Shown in pieces: positions 2,647 to 30,175 of a stretch of DNA of 32,911 bases; within the stretch, counting starts at the first letter, position 1; each line of letters starts with the position of its first letter. A program made the position numbers and the translations under genes. Source of the stretch: a virus. The DNA is taken from the IMG/VR virus record IMGVR_UViG_3300033052_000111, positions 1 to 32,911 of that record; one strand, given 5' to 3'. The notes below the pieces were generated by a model. That model did no database searches, was not told the origin of the DNA, and saw only the letters and a program-made list of their open reading frames with translations.

Positions 2647-2652
2647 TAAATA
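2647..2652 (+). promoter_or_regulatory. Start-associated TAAATA motif before HNH/AP2 gene
   Basis: GCTAAATACTGG directly precedes the ATG at 2657, with 4 bases between TAAATA and the start codon and no SD. The identical nonamer CTAAATACT recurs just after this gene. Confidence 0.55.
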
Positions 2653-2656
2653 CTGG

Positions 2657-3142
2657 ATGCGAACAACATCCAGCAACGCCAATCATATCTATGAATACTT
2701 CGCCTCGTACTACCACTACGACGCGGAGACCGGCCTTCTCTACAGTCGCCGAACAGGACGCCCGATCGGATCGAAGGTCGGCGCCGGATACCTGCGAGTC
2801 AGCCTCGCCGGCCACACCTACATGGTCCATCGGCTCGCTTGGCTCTTGGTCCACGGCCGATGGCCTGCTGAGCAGATCGACCATATCAACGGAATCCCTG
2901 ACGACAATCGCCTGTGCAATCTCCGAGAGGCGACGGCTCAGCAGAACTTGCAGTCCCGGCCGATGCACAAACGCAATCAGCTTGGCGTAAAAGGCGTCTG
3001 CGAGGTCAGAGGTCGATACCGCGCCCAACTCTGGACCAACGGCAGGTTCGTCCTGAACAAATACTTCGACACCATCGACGACGCGAGCGCGGCCTATCTA
3101 GCAAAAAGTCGCGAGGTCTTCGGCGAATGGCATCGCGCGTGA
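2657..3142 (+). CDS. HNH homing endonuclease with AP2 DNA-binding domain
   Basis: The 161-residue product carries an HNH_3-type core: H58-R59, then DHINGIPDDNRLCNLR with D75-H76, N78, N84 and N88. A C-terminal AP2-like DNA-binding domain follows at about 108-158 (LGVKGV ... YFDTIDDASAAYLAKS). This is the standard architecture of free-standing phage homing endonucleases, which cut cognate sites lacking the gene. It is a likely selfish insertion in the cos/terminase region. It has its own TAAATA motif at the start, and a second copy follows its stop. No partner intron or intein is visible. Confidence 0.88.
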   Translation: MRTTSSNANHIYEYFASYYHYDAETGLLYSRRTGRPIGSKVGAGYLRVSLAGHTYMVHRLAWLLVHGRWPAEQIDHINGIPDDNRLCNLREATAQQNLQSRPMHKRNQLGVKGVCEVRGRYRAQLWTNGRFVLNKYFDTIDDASAAYLAKSREVFGEWHRA

Positions 3143-4202: not shown

Positions 4203-4208
4203 TAAATA
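4203..4208 (+). promoter_or_regulatory. TAAATA motif before terminase small subunit
   Basis: CATAAATACCGCT precedes the ATG at 4214 with a 5-base gap and no SD. It lies in the 34-base gap between the divergent moron and terminase genes. Confidence 0.55.
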
Positions 4209-4675: not shown

Positions 4676-4681
4676 TAAATA
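4676..4681 (+). promoter_or_regulatory. TAAATA motif in a palindrome before terminase large subunit
   Basis: CCGGGTAAATACCCGG (4671-4686) is a perfect inverted repeat of CCGGGTA around AA. It is followed by a GTG start at 4686, 4 bases after TAAATA. The symmetry suggests possible binding by a dimer, but other copies of the motif are not symmetric. Confidence 0.55.
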
Positions 4682-6327: not shown

Positions 6328-6333
6328 TAAATA
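6328..6333 (+). promoter_or_regulatory. TAAATA motif before portal gene
   Basis: CCTAAATAGCTTC precedes the ATG at 6339 with a 5-base gap and no SD. The copy lies in the 21-base gap after the large terminase gene. Confidence 0.55.
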
Positions 6334-8282: not shown

Positions 8283-8288
8283 TAAATA
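8283..8288 (+). promoter_or_regulatory. TAAATA motif before major capsid leader
   Basis: GATAAATAACTCC lies 34 bases before the capsid ATG. It partly overlaps the 5' arm of the long stem-loop at 8284-8317. It is one of four copies followed by a leader instead of an immediate start codon. Confidence 0.5.
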
Positions 8289-8317
8289 ACTCCGAGAAAT
8301 CAAACTCGGAGTTATTT
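8284..8317 (+). promoter_or_regulatory. Hairpin leader of the major capsid gene
   Basis: AAATAACTCCGAG (8284-8296) and its perfect complement (8305-8317) form a 13-bp stem with an 8-base loop AAATCAAA. The only SD candidate for the capsid gene, CGGAG (8307-8311), lies inside the 3' arm, 11 bases before the ATG at 8323. The structure could stabilise the mRNA, gate translation, or (GC stem followed by TTATTT) act as an attenuator for transcripts coming from the protease gene. Confidence 0.6.
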
Positions 8318-8322
8318 CACAA

Positions 8323-9540
8323 ATGTCGAACTATAAGGACTTGCTCACTCAGAGCATCCAAGCCGCCCATGAAGCCCGCGCCCTGATCGACCAGATCACG
8401 GACAAGACTGACGAAGCCCGCGCGCGCGAGCTTGATGAGGCTGCAAACAAGGCCTTTGCCCACTCGGACGCCCTGCAAAAGCGCGCCGAAATGCTGAAAA
8501 GCATCGAGGAGCGCGAGGCCGTGCTGAATGCGGCCGATCCGCGCCGCGAAACCGAAGACCGCTCGGCCACAGCCACCGGCGCCCTGACGAAGGAAGAACG
8601 CCACACTCGCGTGTTTGAGGCGGCCATGCGCGGCCAAGAACTGCCGGAGAGCGGTCGCGAATTCCGTGACCAGAACGTCGGCACCAACTCGGCTGGCGGC
8701 TACCTCGTCCCGGCTCAGTTCCAAGCGTCCCTGATCAAAGCAATGAAGGCCTATGGCCCGATGAACGATGACACCGTCATCGACCGCCTGACCACCAACA
8801 CCGGCGCCAAGCTGACTTGGCCGAAGATGGACGACACGGCCAACAAGGGCCGCATGATCGGCGAAGCGACCCAAGTTTGGTCGAATGCCGGCGTCACCTT
8901 GGGCACGATCGACCTCGACGCCTACAAGGGCACGTCTGACGCCATCCTCGTCTCGGCTGAACTGTTGAACGACGCGGAAATCAGCGTTGAAGCGATCCTG
9001 AACGAGGCAATCGCCGAACGACTGGGCCGTCTGGTCAACTATCAGCTGACCCTCGGCACCGGCGCCAGCGCTCCGAACGGTATCGTCACCTCAGTGGGCA
9101 CGCCGTCTCTGGTCACGGTCGCCAACGCCGCCATCGCCACCGACGACGTGCTGAGCCTGTCGCACGACGTTGACCCGGCCTATCGTGGCAATCCGGGCGT
9201 GGGCTTCATGTTCAACGACAAGACGCTTCTCGACCTGAAGAAGAAGAAGGACAACAACGGCAATTACATCTGGCAACCGGGCACGGTTGGCGGCGCCGCT
9301 GCGACCATCTTCGGCCACCGCTACTTCATCAACCAAGACATGGCCGACATCGCCACCGGCGCCGTCCCCATGCTGTTCGGTGATTTCAAGAAGTACCGCA
9401 GCCGCTTCGTGAAGAACGTCGTCATCAAGCGCCTCGACGAGCGTTACGCCGACACCGATCAGGTCGCCTTCCTCGCGTTCATCCGCTTCGACGGCGAGAC
9501 GATGGACACGCGCGCCATCAAGGGCCTGCGCGTCAAGTAA
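8323..9540 (+). CDS. Major capsid protein, HK97 fold
   Basis: The 405-residue product has a highly charged, helical N-terminal region (about 1-120) resembling the HK97 delta/scaffold domain. The capsid domain follows, with NSAGGYLVP (about 125-133) where mature HK97-type capsid proteins begin, then TGASAPNGI and a conserved C-terminal FIRFDGETMDTRAIKGLRVK. Cleavage near residue 115-120 by the upstream protease is expected from the family. The gene forms its own unit: TAAATA motif, hairpin leader with hidden SD, capsid, a coupled 44-residue ORF, and an intrinsic terminator. That layout suits very high expression. Confidence 0.95.
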   Translation: MSNYKDLLTQSIQAAHEARALIDQITDKTDEARARELDEAANKAFAHSDALQKRAEMLKSIEEREAVLNAADPRRETEDRSATATGALTKEERHTRVFEAAMRGQELPESGREFRDQNVGTNSAGGYLVPAQFQASLIKAMKAYGPMNDDTVIDRLTTNTGAKLTWPKMDDTANKGRMIGEATQVWSNAGVTLGTIDLDAYKGTSDAILVSAELLNDAEISVEAILNEAIAERLGRLVNYQLTLGTGASAPNGIVTSVGTPSLVTVANAAIATDDVLSLSHDVDPAYRGNPGVGFMFNDKTLLDLKKKKDNNGNYIWQPGTVGGAAATIFGHRYFINQDMADIATGAVPMLFGDFKKYRSRFVKNVVIKRLDERYADTDQVAFLAFIRFDGETMDTRAIKGLRVK

Positions 9541-10184: not shown

Positions 10185-10190
10185 TAAATA
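10185..10190 (+). promoter_or_regulatory. TAAATA motif before head-tail connector
   Basis: CCTAAATATCGG precedes the ATG at 10195 with a 4-base gap and no SD. It restarts the plus-strand run after the capsid terminator and the reversed moron. Confidence 0.6.
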
Positions 10191-11319: not shown

Positions 11320-11707
11320 ACGCAGCGCTTTCGAGCGTCAGGCCGCGTTTGAGGCCGCGCTGGCAAAGCAGCCGGCCGCCATGCGCGAAGCCATCCGGCT
11401 CGCCAACAACCGCACCGCCCTCGCCCACGCCGCGCGCCTTCGTCGTAACGTCCCGAAGGGCTCGCCGAACCGTGGGCACATCGTCTCGTCGGTACGCGTC
11501 CGCGCGGGCTCGAACGATCTAGAGGTCATCGTCTCGGTCGGCTCGCCCGAGTTCCCGTATGCCGCAGCGCTAGAGTTCGGCCACAAGAACCGGGACGGCT
11601 CGCAAACCGCCGCCGTCAAATACTACTTCCCGCTAGTCAAACTGATGCGTCGCAAGCACCGCGCCGCCCTGATCCGGGCCGCTCGTAAGGTGTGGCGGGG
11701 TAAATAA
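11312..11707 (+). CDS. HK97 gp10-like tail/neck protein
   Basis: The 131-residue, strongly basic product has the hallmark EFPYAAALEFGHKNRDG segment (about 75-90) of the HK97 gp10-like family. The N-terminal half is helical, followed by a VSSVRVRAGSNDLEVIVSVG beta hairpin. Family members complete the head-tail interface or tail end. The gene overlaps the closure gene by 8 bases, and its TAA stop is part of the next TAAATA motif. Confidence 0.85.
   Translation: MARRSAFERQAAFEAALAKQPAAMREAIRLANNRTALAHAARLRRNVPKGSPNRGHIVSSVRVRAGSNDLEVIVSVGSPEFPYAAALEFGHKNRDGSQTAAVKYYFPLVKLMRRKHRAALIRAARKVWRGK
11701..11706 (+). promoter_or_regulatory. TAAATA motif before DUF3168 gene
   Basis: GGTAAATAAGGC precedes the ATG at 11711 with a 4-base gap. 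It overlaps the last two codons and the stop of the gp10-like gene. Confidence 0.55.
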
Positions 11708-12127: not shown

Positions 12128-12133
12128 TAAATA
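12128..12133 (+). promoter_or_regulatory. TAAATA motif before tail tube leader
   Basis: GATAAATACCTCC lies 32 bases before the tail tube ATG and is followed within two bases by the hairpin at 12135-12158. The flanking bases closely match the capsid copy (GATAAATA, then CTCCGA). Confidence 0.5.
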
Positions 12134-12134
12134 C

Positions 12135-12158
12135 CTCCGACCACTTTCAACGTCGGAG
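12135..12158 (+). promoter_or_regulatory. Hairpin leader of the tail tube gene
   Basis: CTCCGAC (12135-12141) pairs with GTCGGAG (12152-12158) around a 10-base loop. Flanking ATAAA and TTTAT could extend the stem across a 3-base bulge. The SD CGGAG is in the 3' arm, 7 bases before the ATG at 12166. The arm sequences CTCCGA and TCGGAG are nearly those of the capsid leader, although the loops differ. Confidence 0.6.
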
Positions 12159-12165
12159 TTTATAC

Positions 12166-12600
12166 ATGCCTGCAAACTATATTGATCCGATCCTTGGCGA
12201 AACGCTGATGATCAAGGTTCAAGACACCGCCAACGCTGCGATTTACGCTCACCCCGCAATCATCAACAAGTCGCGCGCCATCTCGTTCTCGACCAAGACC
12301 GTTGATGACGAGCTTGTTGACCTGAACGATCAGGCGGCCCCGGCTCAGACCATCCGCCGCGTCGCCAGCTTTGACACCAAGATCGACGGTTCGGGCTCGA
12401 TGCCGAAGACCTCGGCCGCCGAGTACACGGATTGGGCCACGAAGGGCACGATCCGCAACATCAAGGTCAGCTACGCCAACACCACGATCACCGGCGCCTT
12501 CGTCCTGACCTCGTTCAGCGTCACTGGCGAGCGACTGGAGTCGGTGCAAGCACAGATCACGCTGGAACAAGCCGGCGCCGTGACGGTGCTGAGCGTCTAA
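12166..12600 (+). CDS. Major tail tube protein
   Basis: The 144-residue, beta-rich product fits phage tail tube subunits in size, composition and position: after tail completion and directly before the tail chaperones and tape measure. Motifs seen are LGETLMIKVQDTANAAIY near the N-terminus, TIRRVASFDTKIDGSGSM in the middle, and a C-terminal GAFVLTSFSVTGERLESVQA beta pair. Together with capsid it should be the most abundant virion protein, and it shares the hairpin-leader design with capsid. Confidence 0.85.
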   Translation: MPANYIDPILGETLMIKVQDTANAAIYAHPAIINKSRAISFSTKTVDDELVDLNDQAAPAQTIRRVASFDTKIDGSGSMPKTSAAEYTDWATKGTIRNIKVSYANTTITGAFVLTSFSVTGERLESVQAQITLEQAGAVTVLSV

Positions 12601-12958: not shown

Positions 12959-13254
12959 CTGACCCCGCCGATGGAAGCAGGCCCGCCCAATGGTCGAGCT
13001 ACTTCCAGTTCGCCGGGGTCGCCGGATACACGCCCGCCGAAGTCAAGGCGATGAGCCTCTATGAGTTTCATTGCATCCGCTCGGGCTGGATGCTGACCAA
13101 AGAGTATCAAGAACCAGACAAGGCTGAAGCTCTCAGCGATGACGACTTTGACCGCCTGTTCGCGGCCCATGAAACCAACATGGAGCAAGCGACCCGCGAG
13201 CTATCAGTCTCTGAGGTGATCGCAGCCAACAAGGACAAGCTGCGATCTACCTAA
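12931..13254 (+). CDS. Tail chaperone T part, read by -1 frameshift
   Basis: This frame is open from 12931 (after a TGA at 12928-12930) to 13254. It contains no ATG, GTG, TTG or CTG start until 13051. The peptide before that ATG is clearly protein-like: RPAQWSSYFQFAGVAGYTP followed by AEVKAMSLYEF. The only way to translate it is by slipping -1 from the upstream chaperone inside 12931-12958, where GGGGGAG (12949-12955) offers a slippery run just before the zero-frame TAG. This matches the G/GT frameshift of long-tailed phages. Expected fusion: about 118 residues plus about 100. The exact slip point is inferred. Confidence 0.75.
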   Translation, partial: DRGRRAGGVADPADGSRPAQWSSYFQFAGVAGYTPAEVKAMSLYEFHCIRSGWMLTKEYQEPDKAEALSDDDFDRLFAAHETNMEQATRELSVSEVIAANKDKLRST

Positions 13255-13257
13255 ATA
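13252..13257 (+). promoter_or_regulatory. TAAATA motif before tape measure
   Basis: CCTAAATATTCG precedes the ATG at 13262 with a 4-base gap and no SD. Its TAA is also the stop codon of the T-part chaperone frame. Confidence 0.6.
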
Positions 13258-16248: not shown

Positions 16249-16254
16249 TAAATA
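16249..16254 (+). promoter_or_regulatory. TAAATA motif before distal tail gene
   Basis: CCTAAATACTGG precedes the ATG at 16259 with a 4-base gap and no SD. It is the best match to the apparent consensus and is identical over 11 bases (CTAAATACTGG) to the copy before the HNH/AP2 gene. Confidence 0.6.
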
Positions 16255-17534: not shown

Positions 17535-17540
17535 TAAATA
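17535..17540 (+). promoter_or_regulatory. TAAATA motif before peptidase-like tail gene
   Basis: CCTAAATAGTCG precedes the ATG at 17545 with a 4-base gap and no SD. Confidence 0.6.
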
Positions 17541-21918: not shown

Positions 21919-21924
21919 TAAATA
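21919..21924 (+). promoter_or_regulatory. TAAATA motif before small coiled-coil gene
   Basis: CCTAAATAAAGG precedes the ATG at 21929 with a 4-base gap. The AAGG in the gap is too close to the ATG to be an effective SD. Confidence 0.6.
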
Positions 21925-25036: not shown

Positions 25037-25590
25037 TGGCGCTTCCCACTTCCGGCACCATCACCTTGGCGATGATCGCCGCTGAACTTGGGGTCGGCCT
25101 CCCGCTCGACCTCAACGCGGCGAACGTCCGGGCGCTGGCAGGCAAGCCCTCCGGCAACATCATCATGCCCAACGACTTCTATGGAAAGTCGAGCTACGAC
25201 CCCTACCCCGATCCGGTGACATTCGCGGACCTCACCGTTTTCGAGTACGGCAACGCGAGCGGTACTAGCTCGGCAACGATCACGGGGATTTCGAGCGCGA
25301 TCACCTTGCGGGTGTCGATCAACAATCCGCCCGGCGTGCGTAAGCGCATCGCCATCAGCGTCGGCGGCTCAGGCGTTGTGAACTCGATCGCGACTTCACC
25401 CATGTCGTGGGATTTGACCGTCAACAACGGGCAGACAGTCGCCATCACCCTGACGGCCACAGCCACACAGAACCTCAGCCAGTATTGGCAGGGCTCATGC
25501 GTGATCACCAACCAGACGACAAGCGGCGATACCCTCGGCACGTTCGCCTTCGACCTTCAGGCGCTCAGCGATAACGGGACGATTTCATAA
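25036..25590 (+). CDS. Tail-associated protein, 184 residues
   Basis: The N-terminus has the pattern SGTITLAMIAAELGVGLPLD, then NVRALAGKPSG and MPNDFYGKS, a small conserved module found at the start or end of many phage tail and fibre proteins. The rest (about 60-184) is a Ser/Thr/Val-rich beta-sandwich-like domain, perhaps carbohydrate-binding. It starts in a TGATG overlap with the fibre stop, so it is made together with the fibre. Its TAA stop belongs to the next TAAATA motif. A virion location is likely; the exact role is unknown. Confidence 0.75.
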   Translation: MALPTSGTITLAMIAAELGVGLPLDLNAANVRALAGKPSGNIIMPNDFYGKSSYDPYPDPVTFADLTVFEYGNASGTSSATITGISSAITLRVSINNPPGVRKRIAISVGGSGVVNSIATSPMSWDLTVNNGQTVAITLTATATQNLSQYWQGSCVITNQTTSGDTLGTFAFDLQALSDNGTIS

Positions 25591-25593
25591 ATA
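25588..25593 (+). promoter_or_regulatory. TAAATA motif before 132-residue tail gene
   Basis: CATAAATACGTCC precedes the ATG at 25599 with a 5-base gap. It overlaps the stop codon of the gene before it. Confidence 0.55.
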
Positions 25594-27222: not shown

Positions 27223-27465
27223 CTAGGCCCCGCCTGTCTCGACCGCCGCATCAGTATCCGCCGAAGCCTCTGCCGCAACGGAAGCCGGCTTATGGTCCTT
27301 CACCACCACCTGAATGATGCTCGCGACCGTGGCTCCCACCGTCGCGACGGCAGCAGCGTGTTCGGGTGAGAACACTACTCCAAGAACGCTCGCCACGCCG
27401 GTGATACCGACCCACGTACTACGCTCGGACAGGCGTTGAAGGATGTATTCGACGACGAATTGCAT
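27223..27465 (-). CDS. Second holin candidate, two membrane segments
   Basis: The 80-residue product has two membrane segments (about 15-33, STWVGITGVASVLGVVF; and 37-56, AAAVATVGATVASIIQVVV) and a charged, Ala-rich tail, which fits a class II holin or antiholin. It has a good SD (GGAGGA, 5 bases before the ATG) and a TAAATA motif 27 bases upstream on its own strand, so it seems to be controlled with the late genes despite its opposite orientation. It may pair with the XhlA-type protein. Confidence 0.7.
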   Translation of the reverse strand: MQFVVEYILQRLSERSTWVGITGVASVLGVVFSPEHAAAVATVGATVASIIQVVVKDHKPASVAAEASADTDAAVETGGA

Positions 27466-27473
27466 GGTGATCC

Positions 27474-27491
27474 TCCGGTTTTTCTTCCGGA
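27474..27491 (-). promoter_or_regulatory. Hairpin leader of the second holin
   Basis: On the minus strand TCCGG (27491-27487) pairs with CCGGA (27478-27474) around an 8-base loop AAGAAAAA. The SD GGAGGA begins inside the 3' arm. This is the shortest of the four hairpins and leaves part of the SD exposed. Confidence 0.45.
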
Positions 27492-27492
27492 C

Positions 27493-27498
27493 TATTTA
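27493..27498 (-). promoter_or_regulatory. TAAATA motif on minus strand
   Basis: Read on the minus strand this is CCTAAATAGTCC, 27 bases before the holin ATG. It is the only gene-associated minus-strand copy and lies in the divergent region shared with the MucR-like gene. Confidence 0.5.
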
Positions 27499-27544
27499 GG
27501 ATCGTGGCACCGTGCCCCTCTGTCGATTCTTGGGAGGCCCTACG

Positions 27545-27994
27545 ATGGCCGAAACGAACACGAAGCTGATTGAACTCACGGCCGAGATCGTGGCCAACTA
27601 CGTGGCCAACAACGCCACCGCCGTCAGCGACCTTCCGAGCCTGATCAAGGCGACCCACGATGCCCTTGCCGGCGTCGAAAGCGGCGGCACCGTCGAGAGC
27701 AAGGCCAACGACGTTCAGAAACCGACGCCGGCCCAAATCCGCAAGTCGATCACCCCTGACGCCCTGATCAGCTTCGAAGACGGCCGCCCCTACAAAACGC
27801 TGAAGCGCCACCTGACGACGCAGGGCCTGACCATCGCCGAATACAAGGCGAAGTGGGGCCTGCCGAACGACTACCCGACCACGGCGCCCGCCTACAGCGA
27901 AGCCCGTTCGGCGATGGCGAAAGCCCTCGGCCTCGGTCAAGGCGGCCGGAAGGCAAAGGCTCCGGCGGCTAAGGGCCGCGCGAAGAAAGCCTGA
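27545..27994 (+). CDS. MucR/Ros-family regulator lacking zinc ligands
   Basis: The start chosen is the ATG 7 bases after GGGAGG; a GTG at 27512 is less likely. The 149-residue product follows the MucR pattern: LTAEIVANYVANNATAV-SDLPSLIKATHDAL (11-41), then KSITPDALISFEDG, LKRHL, AEYKAKWGLPNDYP and SEARSAMAKALGLGQ (about 67-132). The Cys of the family zinc finger is Ser76 here. The second His region is TTQG instead of THH or THY, leaving His89. The tail is basic (KAKAPAAKGRAKKA). MucR/Ros proteins bind AT-rich DNA with TA steps and act as H-NS-like regulators. Confidence 0.88.
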   Translation: MAETNTKLIELTAEIVANYVANNATAVSDLPSLIKATHDALAGVESGGTVESKANDVQKPTPAQIRKSITPDALISFEDGRPYKTLKRHLTTQGLTIAEYKAKWGLPNDYPTTAPAYSEARSAMAKALGLGQGGRKAKAPAAKGRAKKA

Positions 27995-28245: not shown

Positions 28246-29193
28246 CTAAGCCGCCGCAGCAAGTTCCTCGACCGTCGCGTCCTCGCCGGCGCCGATCCGC
28301 TCGACCGCTCGGGCGAACCATCTGGCGTCCTTCTCGATGCCGACGAACCGCCGGCCTTCCTGCACCGCCGCCACGCCGGTCGTGCCGCTCCCCATGGTCG
28401 GATCAAGCACCACGTCGCCGGGATTGCTGTAACTGCGGATGATCCACGCCATCAGGTCCACCGGCTTTTCAGTCGGGTGGCGGCCGCGCCCGCCGACGCT
28501 GGCGAACTCCAGCACGGACGTGGGAAACCCAGTATGGGTCTGAGCCTTACCCTTGTAGGTCTTCAGGCCGTAAACCTCGGACGCGTGGACCGTGCCGTTC
28601 ACCCGCTTCAGGTTCGGCTCGGCCAGTTCAACGACGCCCTGCGGGTGATACGTCATCTGGCGGTTCGAGCGGTGCGCGTGGATCGTCGTGCCGGGGCTGA
28701 AGACGCAGATGTCTTCATGCTCGCTCAGGGGCTTCAGCCACGCGTGTTGGAAGCCGGTCTTGCGCGTCTTCTTCCAGACGAGCCGGTACTTCAGCCATTC
28801 CGGCCGGGACATGCACAGGGCGGCCGTGAACATTCCGCTCGCCGTCAGCACGACCGCGCCGCGCGGCTTCAGCACCCGCTCGAACTCGGCCCACATCTCG
28901 TCGAAGGGAATGACCGCATCCCACGCGCACGCCGTCGAGCCATACGGCAGATCAGCGGCGATCAGATCGACGGAACGGTCAGGCAGGTCACGCAGCCGGG
29001 CGAGGCAATCGCCTTCCATCAGGCGGACGGTCGCCGGCGCCGGGTCAGCGGCAGGCTGTTGGATGTTGTCGTTGGCGGGACGCGTTCGGCGGGCCTGTCG
29101 GCGGGCAACTCGTCGGTCAATCTGCCTTTGCAGCGTCCGCGCCTCCAAGCGCGAGAGACCGTTGATGCGAAAACCCATCGCCCGTCGCGTCAT
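28246..29193 (-). CDS. Orphan DNA methyltransferase, N4/N6 beta-class
   Basis: The 315-residue product has motif IV as DLPY (81-84), HPTEKP (239-244) and motif I as DPTMGSGTTG (264-273). The catalytic-before-SAM-site order is that of beta-class amino methyltransferases (N6_N4_Mtase family). The first 50 residues are Arg-rich and may bind DNA. No restriction enzyme is next to it, so it probably protects phage DNA or alters gene expression. An SD-like AAAAGGA stands before the ATG. The recognition site cannot be read from the sequence. Confidence 0.92.
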   Translation of the reverse strand: MTRRAMGFRINGLSRLEARTLQRQIDRRVARRQARRTRPANDNIQQPAADPAPATVRLMEGDCLARLRDLPDRSVDLIAADLPYGSTACAWDAVIPFDEMWAEFERVLKPRGAVVLTASGMFTAALCMSRPEWLKYRLVWKKTRKTGFQHAWLKPLSEHEDICVFSPGTTIHAHRSNRQMTYHPQGVVELAEPNLKRVNGTVHASEVYGLKTYKGKAQTHTGFPTSVLEFASVGGRGRHPTEKPVDLMAWIIRSYSNPGDVVLDPTMGSGTTGVAAVQEGRRFVGIEKDARWFARAVERIGAGEDATVEELAAAA

Positions 29194-30169: not shown

Positions 30170-30175
30170 TAAATA
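30170..30175 (+). promoter_or_regulatory. TAAATA motif before endolysin
   Basis: CCTAAATAGCGG precedes the ATG at 30180 with a 4-base gap and no SD. It restarts late plus-strand expression after the reversed cluster. Confidence 0.6.

Follow-up and report, generated by a model that had tools for sequence, protein, structure and literature searches.

The window, as we call the whole 32,911-nt stretch of IMG/VR virus record IMGVR_UViG_3300033052_000111, carries a mucR-like gene whose product lacks two zinc ligands, and the hexamer TAAATA stands at many of its gene starts. A preliminary description joined the two, proposing that the MucR protein could bind TAAATA as a late-gene regulator or else antagonise host MucR. 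The question is whether protein and motif belong together and, if they do not, what each of them may do.

The mucR-like gene and its product

The open frame at 27545-27994 on the plus strand was intact, and PF05443 (ROS_MUCR) matched its product over residues 8-131 with an E value of 2.4e-40 and a score of 137.8 bits against a curated cut-off of 25.4, bearing out the MucR layout that had been read from the sequence. The genome search likewise returned a Ros/MucR family match (E 4.5e-42). In the AlphaFold2 model, two N-terminal helices (residues 2-22 and 27-45, pLDDT about 95) preceded the DNA-binding domain, and structure prediction, which had been suggested as a check of the finger region, gave that domain a pLDDT of about 93. 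The best PDB match of the predicted fold was Ros (2jsp), with a probability of 1.00 and a TM-score of 0.56 by target length but a Foldseek E value of only 2.6e-3; at the sequence level the two proteins matched with E 3.7e-21. The hydrophobic triad L30, L33 and I34 was intact in both sequence and model, corresponding to L36/L39/I40 of MucR and L34/L37/I38 of the Mesorhizobium loti protein Ml5 (PMC11662661). A phage homologue (L155 in record G001) was 79-81% identical, its gene also lying next to a holin-like gene. No sigma-70-like promoter was found before the window mucR, which starts behind a Shine-Dalgarno sequence. An N6/N4 DNA methylase gene (28246-29193) lies downstream of mucR and has homologues in several related phages.

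Zinc-ligand positions and serine-type relatives

Agrobacterium Ros and Brucella MucR share the Pfam family and the two-domain layout with the window protein but hold zinc through Cys-(Cys or Asp)-His-His. When aligned with Ros (2jsp) and about 125 family members, the four zinc positions of the window protein were Ser76, Asp79, His89 and Gln93, the last followed by Gly; two ligands of the typical set were gone and Asp79 and His89 retained, which confirmed the two substitutions first described (Ser76 for the finger Cys, Gln for the second His). The sister protein in G001 has Ser for Cys as well, but its last His is present.

Viral contigs scanned with the family alignment gave at least 185 relatives, 79 loci were retained, and zinc positions were compared in 82 aligned virus-borne proteins, the window protein included. 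In this sample, which was seeded with the window protein and is biased towards it, Ser for the first Cys was the commonest form among the matches listed (51/82), and Ser-Asp-His without the last His, the type of the window protein, was the biggest class (27 of the 82 among those listed). In the Novosphingobium chloroacetimidivorans genome (G014), five of the eight MucR-family matches also carried serine at the zinc Cys position. Two phage-borne MucR proteins, gp61 of Erythrobacter phage vB_EliS_R6L and the homologue in phage ZS04, have the same serine; they are about 42-45% identical to the window protein and keep the last His. In the tree, the window protein clustered with L155 and L156 (support 97/95) inside a wider virus-borne serine-type group that was weakly supported (61/96). 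L156 is a close MucR homologue (65%) on the 561-kb viral contig IMGVR_UViG_3300046616_000314. Clustering of the genes around viral mucR was dominated by antisense reading frames. Judged from the alignments, missing zinc ligands are not unusual among phage-borne MucR proteins; the zinc-less form is common on phages and prophages and is no curiosity.

M. loti Ml5 has Ser for the first Cys, folds without zinc, forms rings and oligomers and bridges DNA (PMC11662661). It resembles the window protein in this serine, in the N-terminal hydrophobic triad and in the Ros-type DNA-binding domain; it differs in being chromosomal, and oligomer formation and DNA bridging have been measured for Ml5, whereas for the window protein they are predictions. 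The window protein is probably a zinc-free MucR of the serine type, like Ml5. The earlier suggestion that such a protein may still bind DNA gained support, as Ml5 does so with the same Cys-to-Ser change, the triad is intact and the predicted fold points to Ros.

TAAATA at late gene starts

The window contained 19 copies of TAAATA where shuffled sequence would give 1.25; 17 of these copies were on the plus strand, and 12 plus-strand sites sat 4-5 nt ahead of an ATG or GTG, mainly of late genes (Table 1); the motif had rightly been called conspicuous at gene starts. The genes bearing it include those for terminase, portal, capsid, tail proteins and peptidase, late genes of structural or lysis function. 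Across 11 phages we collected 185 distinct sites, with 67 at 4 nt and 33 at 5 nt from the start codon. Among hexamers at a distance of 4-5 nt from ATG, TAAATA was counted 95 times and the next non-overlapping one 13 times. The logo of 97 aligned sites consisted of C or A and then TAAATA, with no upstream signal or -35 element, and the TA that opens the T4 octamer was not conserved in it.

Table 1. Positions in the window of the mucR-like gene, its domains and neighbours, and of TAAATA sites.
Feature	Position	Strand	Basis
TAAATA, 4 nt to ATG of HNH endonuclease gene 2657	2647..2652	+	
TAAATA, 5 nt to ATG of small-terminase-like gene 4214	4203..4208	+	
TAAATA, 4 nt to GTG of large terminase gene 4686	4676..4681	+	
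TAAATA, 5 nt to ATG of portal gene 6339	6328..6333	+	
TAAATA and 8-bp hairpin ahead of major capsid gene 8323-9540	8283..8312	+	shuffle p 0.01
TAAATA, 4 nt to ATG of gene 10195	10185..10190	+	
TAAATA, 4 nt to ATG of gene 11711	11701..11706	+	
TAAATA and 7-bp hairpin ahead of major tail protein-like gene 12166-12600	12128..12158	+	shuffle p 0.01
TAAATA, 4 nt to ATG of tape-measure gene 13262	13252..13257	+	
TAAATA, 4 nt to ATG of gene 16259	16249..16254	+	
TAAATA, 4 nt to ATG of gene 17545	17535..17540	+	
TAAATA, 4 nt to ATG of gene 21929	21919..21924	+	
TAAATA, 5 nt to ATG of gene 25599	25588..25593	+	
Putative membrane (holin-like) protein, 80 aa, divergent from mucR	27223..27465	-	sequence reading
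Inverted repeat TCCGG...CCGGA 3' of the TAAATA at 27493-27498, overlapping the Shine-Dalgarno sequence	27474..27491	-	5 bp, shuffle p 0.08
TAAATA facing the divergent 80-aa gene, away from mucR	27493..27498	-	motif scan
Shine-Dalgarno sequence GGGAGG of mucR	27532..27537	+	sequence
mucR-like gene, 149 aa, Ros/MucR family	27545..27994	+	PF05443 profile match
N-terminal two-helix oligomerisation domain (predicted), residues 2-45, L30/L33/I34 triad	27548..27679	+	AlphaFold2
Ros-type DNA-binding domain (predicted), residues 62-127	27728..27925	+	AlphaFold2 pLDDT about 93
Ser76 codon, where the first zinc-ligand Cys stands	27770..27772	+	alignments
Gln93 codon, where the last zinc-ligand His stands	27821..27823	+	alignments
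TAAATA, 4 nt to ATG of M15 peptidase (endolysin-like) gene 30180	30170..30175	+	

MucR as a candidate reader of TAAATA

The preliminary description placed one TAAATA 47 bases upstream of mucR. A site is indeed there (27493-27498), but it belongs to the minus strand, where it stands in front of the divergent 80-aa gene, a hairpin and a Shine-Dalgarno sequence standing between it and the ATG of that gene. No TAAATA was found upstream of mucR in the direction of mucR itself. A family search with the 80-aa holin-like protein returned nothing except phrog_8494 (E 0.022).

Relatives of the window large terminase split into motif-rich and motif-free groups. PF05443 had no match in ten motif-bearing terminase-related records (G002-G010 and G012), five of them 28-42 kb and the rest 4-24 kb long, viral records that may be incomplete. 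MucR copies were present in a Novosphingobium genome, but contig C11, where the motif-rich prophage stretch L018 lies, carried none. Among the other records compared, G001 was the only one with both motif and mucR; it shares mucR, the tail-fibre genes and the HNH gene with the window, and its head genes differ. The HNH endonuclease gene (window 2657-3142; L014:10779-11258) has its own TAAATA start and is common to phages with otherwise different head genes; it may spread together with its promoter. At the 79 MucR-bearing viral loci, which cover only about 5 kb on either side, TAAATA was not enriched among the matches listed (65 vs 57 expected, 6 near ATG). No enrichment was seen in the first 30 kb of Rhizobium phage 16-3, a terminase relative, and a 35-kb stretch of R6L held no TAAATA.

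As a reader of TAAATA, MucR was rejected and is unlikely on sequence grounds, since its gene has a Shine-Dalgarno start and no TAAATA start, the nearby site is on the opposite strand and points to the other gene, the ten motif-bearing relatives compared are without a PF05443 match, and the 79 MucR loci are without enrichment of the motif. The logo and the spacing also have the look of a core promoter, not of an activator site. A role of phage MucR as a TAAATA-binding activator of late genes has very little probability left, even though TAAATA holds the core that M. loti Ml proteins prefer (AAATA, including a T-A step; PMC9779718), 19 of the 31 AAATA/TATTT pentamers of the window lie within TAAATA, and one site falls between mucR and the next gene both here and in G001. 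Because the AAATA core lies within TAAATA, binding in an EMSA alone would not make MucR the reader. The host protein is a separate matter: 254 of 296 sampled genomes of the Sphingomonadales, a plausible host order, matched the window MucR at E <= 1e-20, so that likely hosts have a MucR of their own, which could play a role at TAAATA sites.

Proposed late promoters resembling those of T4

The TAAATA sites resemble T4-type late core promoters, forming a system separate from MucR. A TATAAATA-like core without a -35 element was found, and it was placed at late genes, as is the TAAATA core of T4 late promoters (TATAAATA, gp55). We infer transcription start positions at these sites from sequence.

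Regular exceptions to the short spacing were the major capsid and major tail genes, in which an inverted repeat of 6-10 bp began 0-1 nt past TAAATA and its 3' arm held GGAG, 5-12 nt ahead of the ATG. Eighteen leaders, chosen by eye, were tested (capsid, major tail and the holin-like gene of the window). GGAG lay in the arm or at most 2 nt from it in 17 of the 18, and the arms formed 16 distinct pairs, G-U pairing occurring in several of them. The shuffle p was below 0.05 in 16/18 leaders, values that are descriptive and not proof because the leaders were picked by eye. In T4 gene e, the read-through mRNA hides the Shine-Dalgarno sequence in a hairpin, and a late promoter in the 5' arm region yields mRNA free of the hairpin (PMC3014915). 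The capsid and major-tail leaders here are arranged alike, and under a late-promoter reading their hairpins would stop translation of read-through transcripts as in gene e. The phages themselves are unlike T4: they are small temperate HK97-type siphophages with mostly leaderless-like starts, their hairpins stand at capsid and major tail genes, and a gp55-like gene was found in only one of them.

That gene (L028:5243-6037) is in G007, which belongs to the same clade and is 36.8 kb long. Its 264-aa product matched phrog_12791 (sigma factor for late transcription) with E 1.2e-63 and phrog_234 with E 9.7e-21, and its near relatives include giant-phage genes (Sinorhizobium 41%, Agrobacterium 35%). 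The G007 sigma is a candidate reader of TAAATA. A family search, phmmer without filters and a six-sequence profile found no gp55-like gene in the window or the other motif-rich records, which may be fragments, and a gp55-like sigma as universal companion of the motif was rejected, being present only in G007 among the motif-rich records searched. As the 42-kb records G009 and G012 are without a gp55-like gene, another reader may exist. A comparison with PHROGs of part of the early-region proteins from G006, G009 and G012 revealed no other sigma. Early-region proteins at L028:575-1318, L027:3338-4057 and L018:1812-2645 have a short common pattern around W/F-D-N, recognised by eye; a family search with one of them gave no match, and they are a possible phage-specific family.

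The window record begins and stops exactly at ORF boundaries (1 and 32911). An integrase lies at its right end, and no replication genes were recognised in it. It resembles a provirus prediction that has been trimmed, and given these ends and the lack of recognised replication genes, the early region may lie outside.

We give even odds to the following picture of a small temperate HK97-type phage clade, at least in part infecting alphaproteobacteria: late promoters of T4 type, a gp55-like sigma reading them in G007 at least, mostly leaderless late mRNAs, a promoter at the base of a translation-blocking hairpin at capsid and major tail genes, and MucR as a separate and optional silencer. To our knowledge, T4-type late-promoter systems come only from T4-like and jumbo phages, with which the relatives of the G007 sigma agree. 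No report of TAAATA as a late promoter was found within the literature searched.

Proposed role of the phage MucR protein

We favour, at a rough probability of 0.55, a serine-type, probably zinc-free Ros/MucR protein that is a phage-borne homologue of an H-NS-like silencer, expressed outside the late regulon, with the TAAATA sites separate from it. Comparison established the family, the loss of two zinc ligands, the intact triad, the Ros-like predicted fold, the serine-type placement and the lack of a TAAATA link; silencing is the best reading because mucR is not a TAAATA-type gene and has no link to the motif. From its layout, the protein would assemble into MucR-type oligomers and bind AT-rich DNA with T-A steps. 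It would be made from its own transcript, not as a late gene, and would silence parts of the prophage or host genome, by itself or together with host MucR. The reading follows the analogy of silencer homologues already described from phages (PMC7074111, PMC8612146). The CGP3 prophage protein CgpS and the Lsr2 homologues of actinophages are likewise phage-borne homologues of a host xenogeneic silencer, but they belong to an unrelated protein family, and prophage silencing by CgpS has been demonstrated (PMC7074111). Counting against a silencer, long AT tracts are not abundant in the window, and the search for a sigma-70-like promoter ahead of mucR found none. The flexible T-repeat pattern of S. 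fredii MucR1 was not enriched in it (9 vs 7.2 expected), and this pattern was rejected as a target marker in the window.

Three other roles were weighed. The protein might work mainly through host MucR by joining host oligomers and weakening or redirecting host silencing, which we hold to be unlikely; the intact triad and the near-universal MucR of the Sphingomonadales would allow it, as would the lower heat stability of the DNA-binding domain of Ml5 compared with that of MucR (PMC11662661), but the protein is only about 45-55% identical to host MucR and this order is only a plausible host. It is rather less likely that phage or host MucR covers the AT-rich late-promoter core in lysogeny and so silences it. 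MucR is recruited more strongly the more AT-rich a target region is (PMC8857273), and AT makes up only 41% of the sequence flanking the sites vs 37% genome-wide, which, like the unenriched T-repeat pattern, is mild evidence against such silencing; MucR proteins do silence AT-rich foreign promoters (PMC8857273), and TAAATA includes the AAATA core for which Ml proteins have a preference (PMC9779718), and both points keep this kind of silencing among the readings. Improbable, finally, is a mucR that is passive cargo (a moron) and does nothing for the phage: the gene occurs in two otherwise different phages, beside a holin-like gene and near one record end, and is absent from the remaining terminase relatives, yet its frame has been maintained at 79-81% identity with the domain residues conserved.

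The frequent occurrence of zinc-less MucR on phages means that phage-borne MucR merits study as a counterpart of the phage-borne Lsr2 and H-NS homologues. Separating MucR from TAAATA removes a false pair of regulator and target and puts a testable late-promoter system in its place. If that system is real, a T4-type late-promoter system would operate in small temperate siphophages, which would be a more interesting result than the MucR protein itself.
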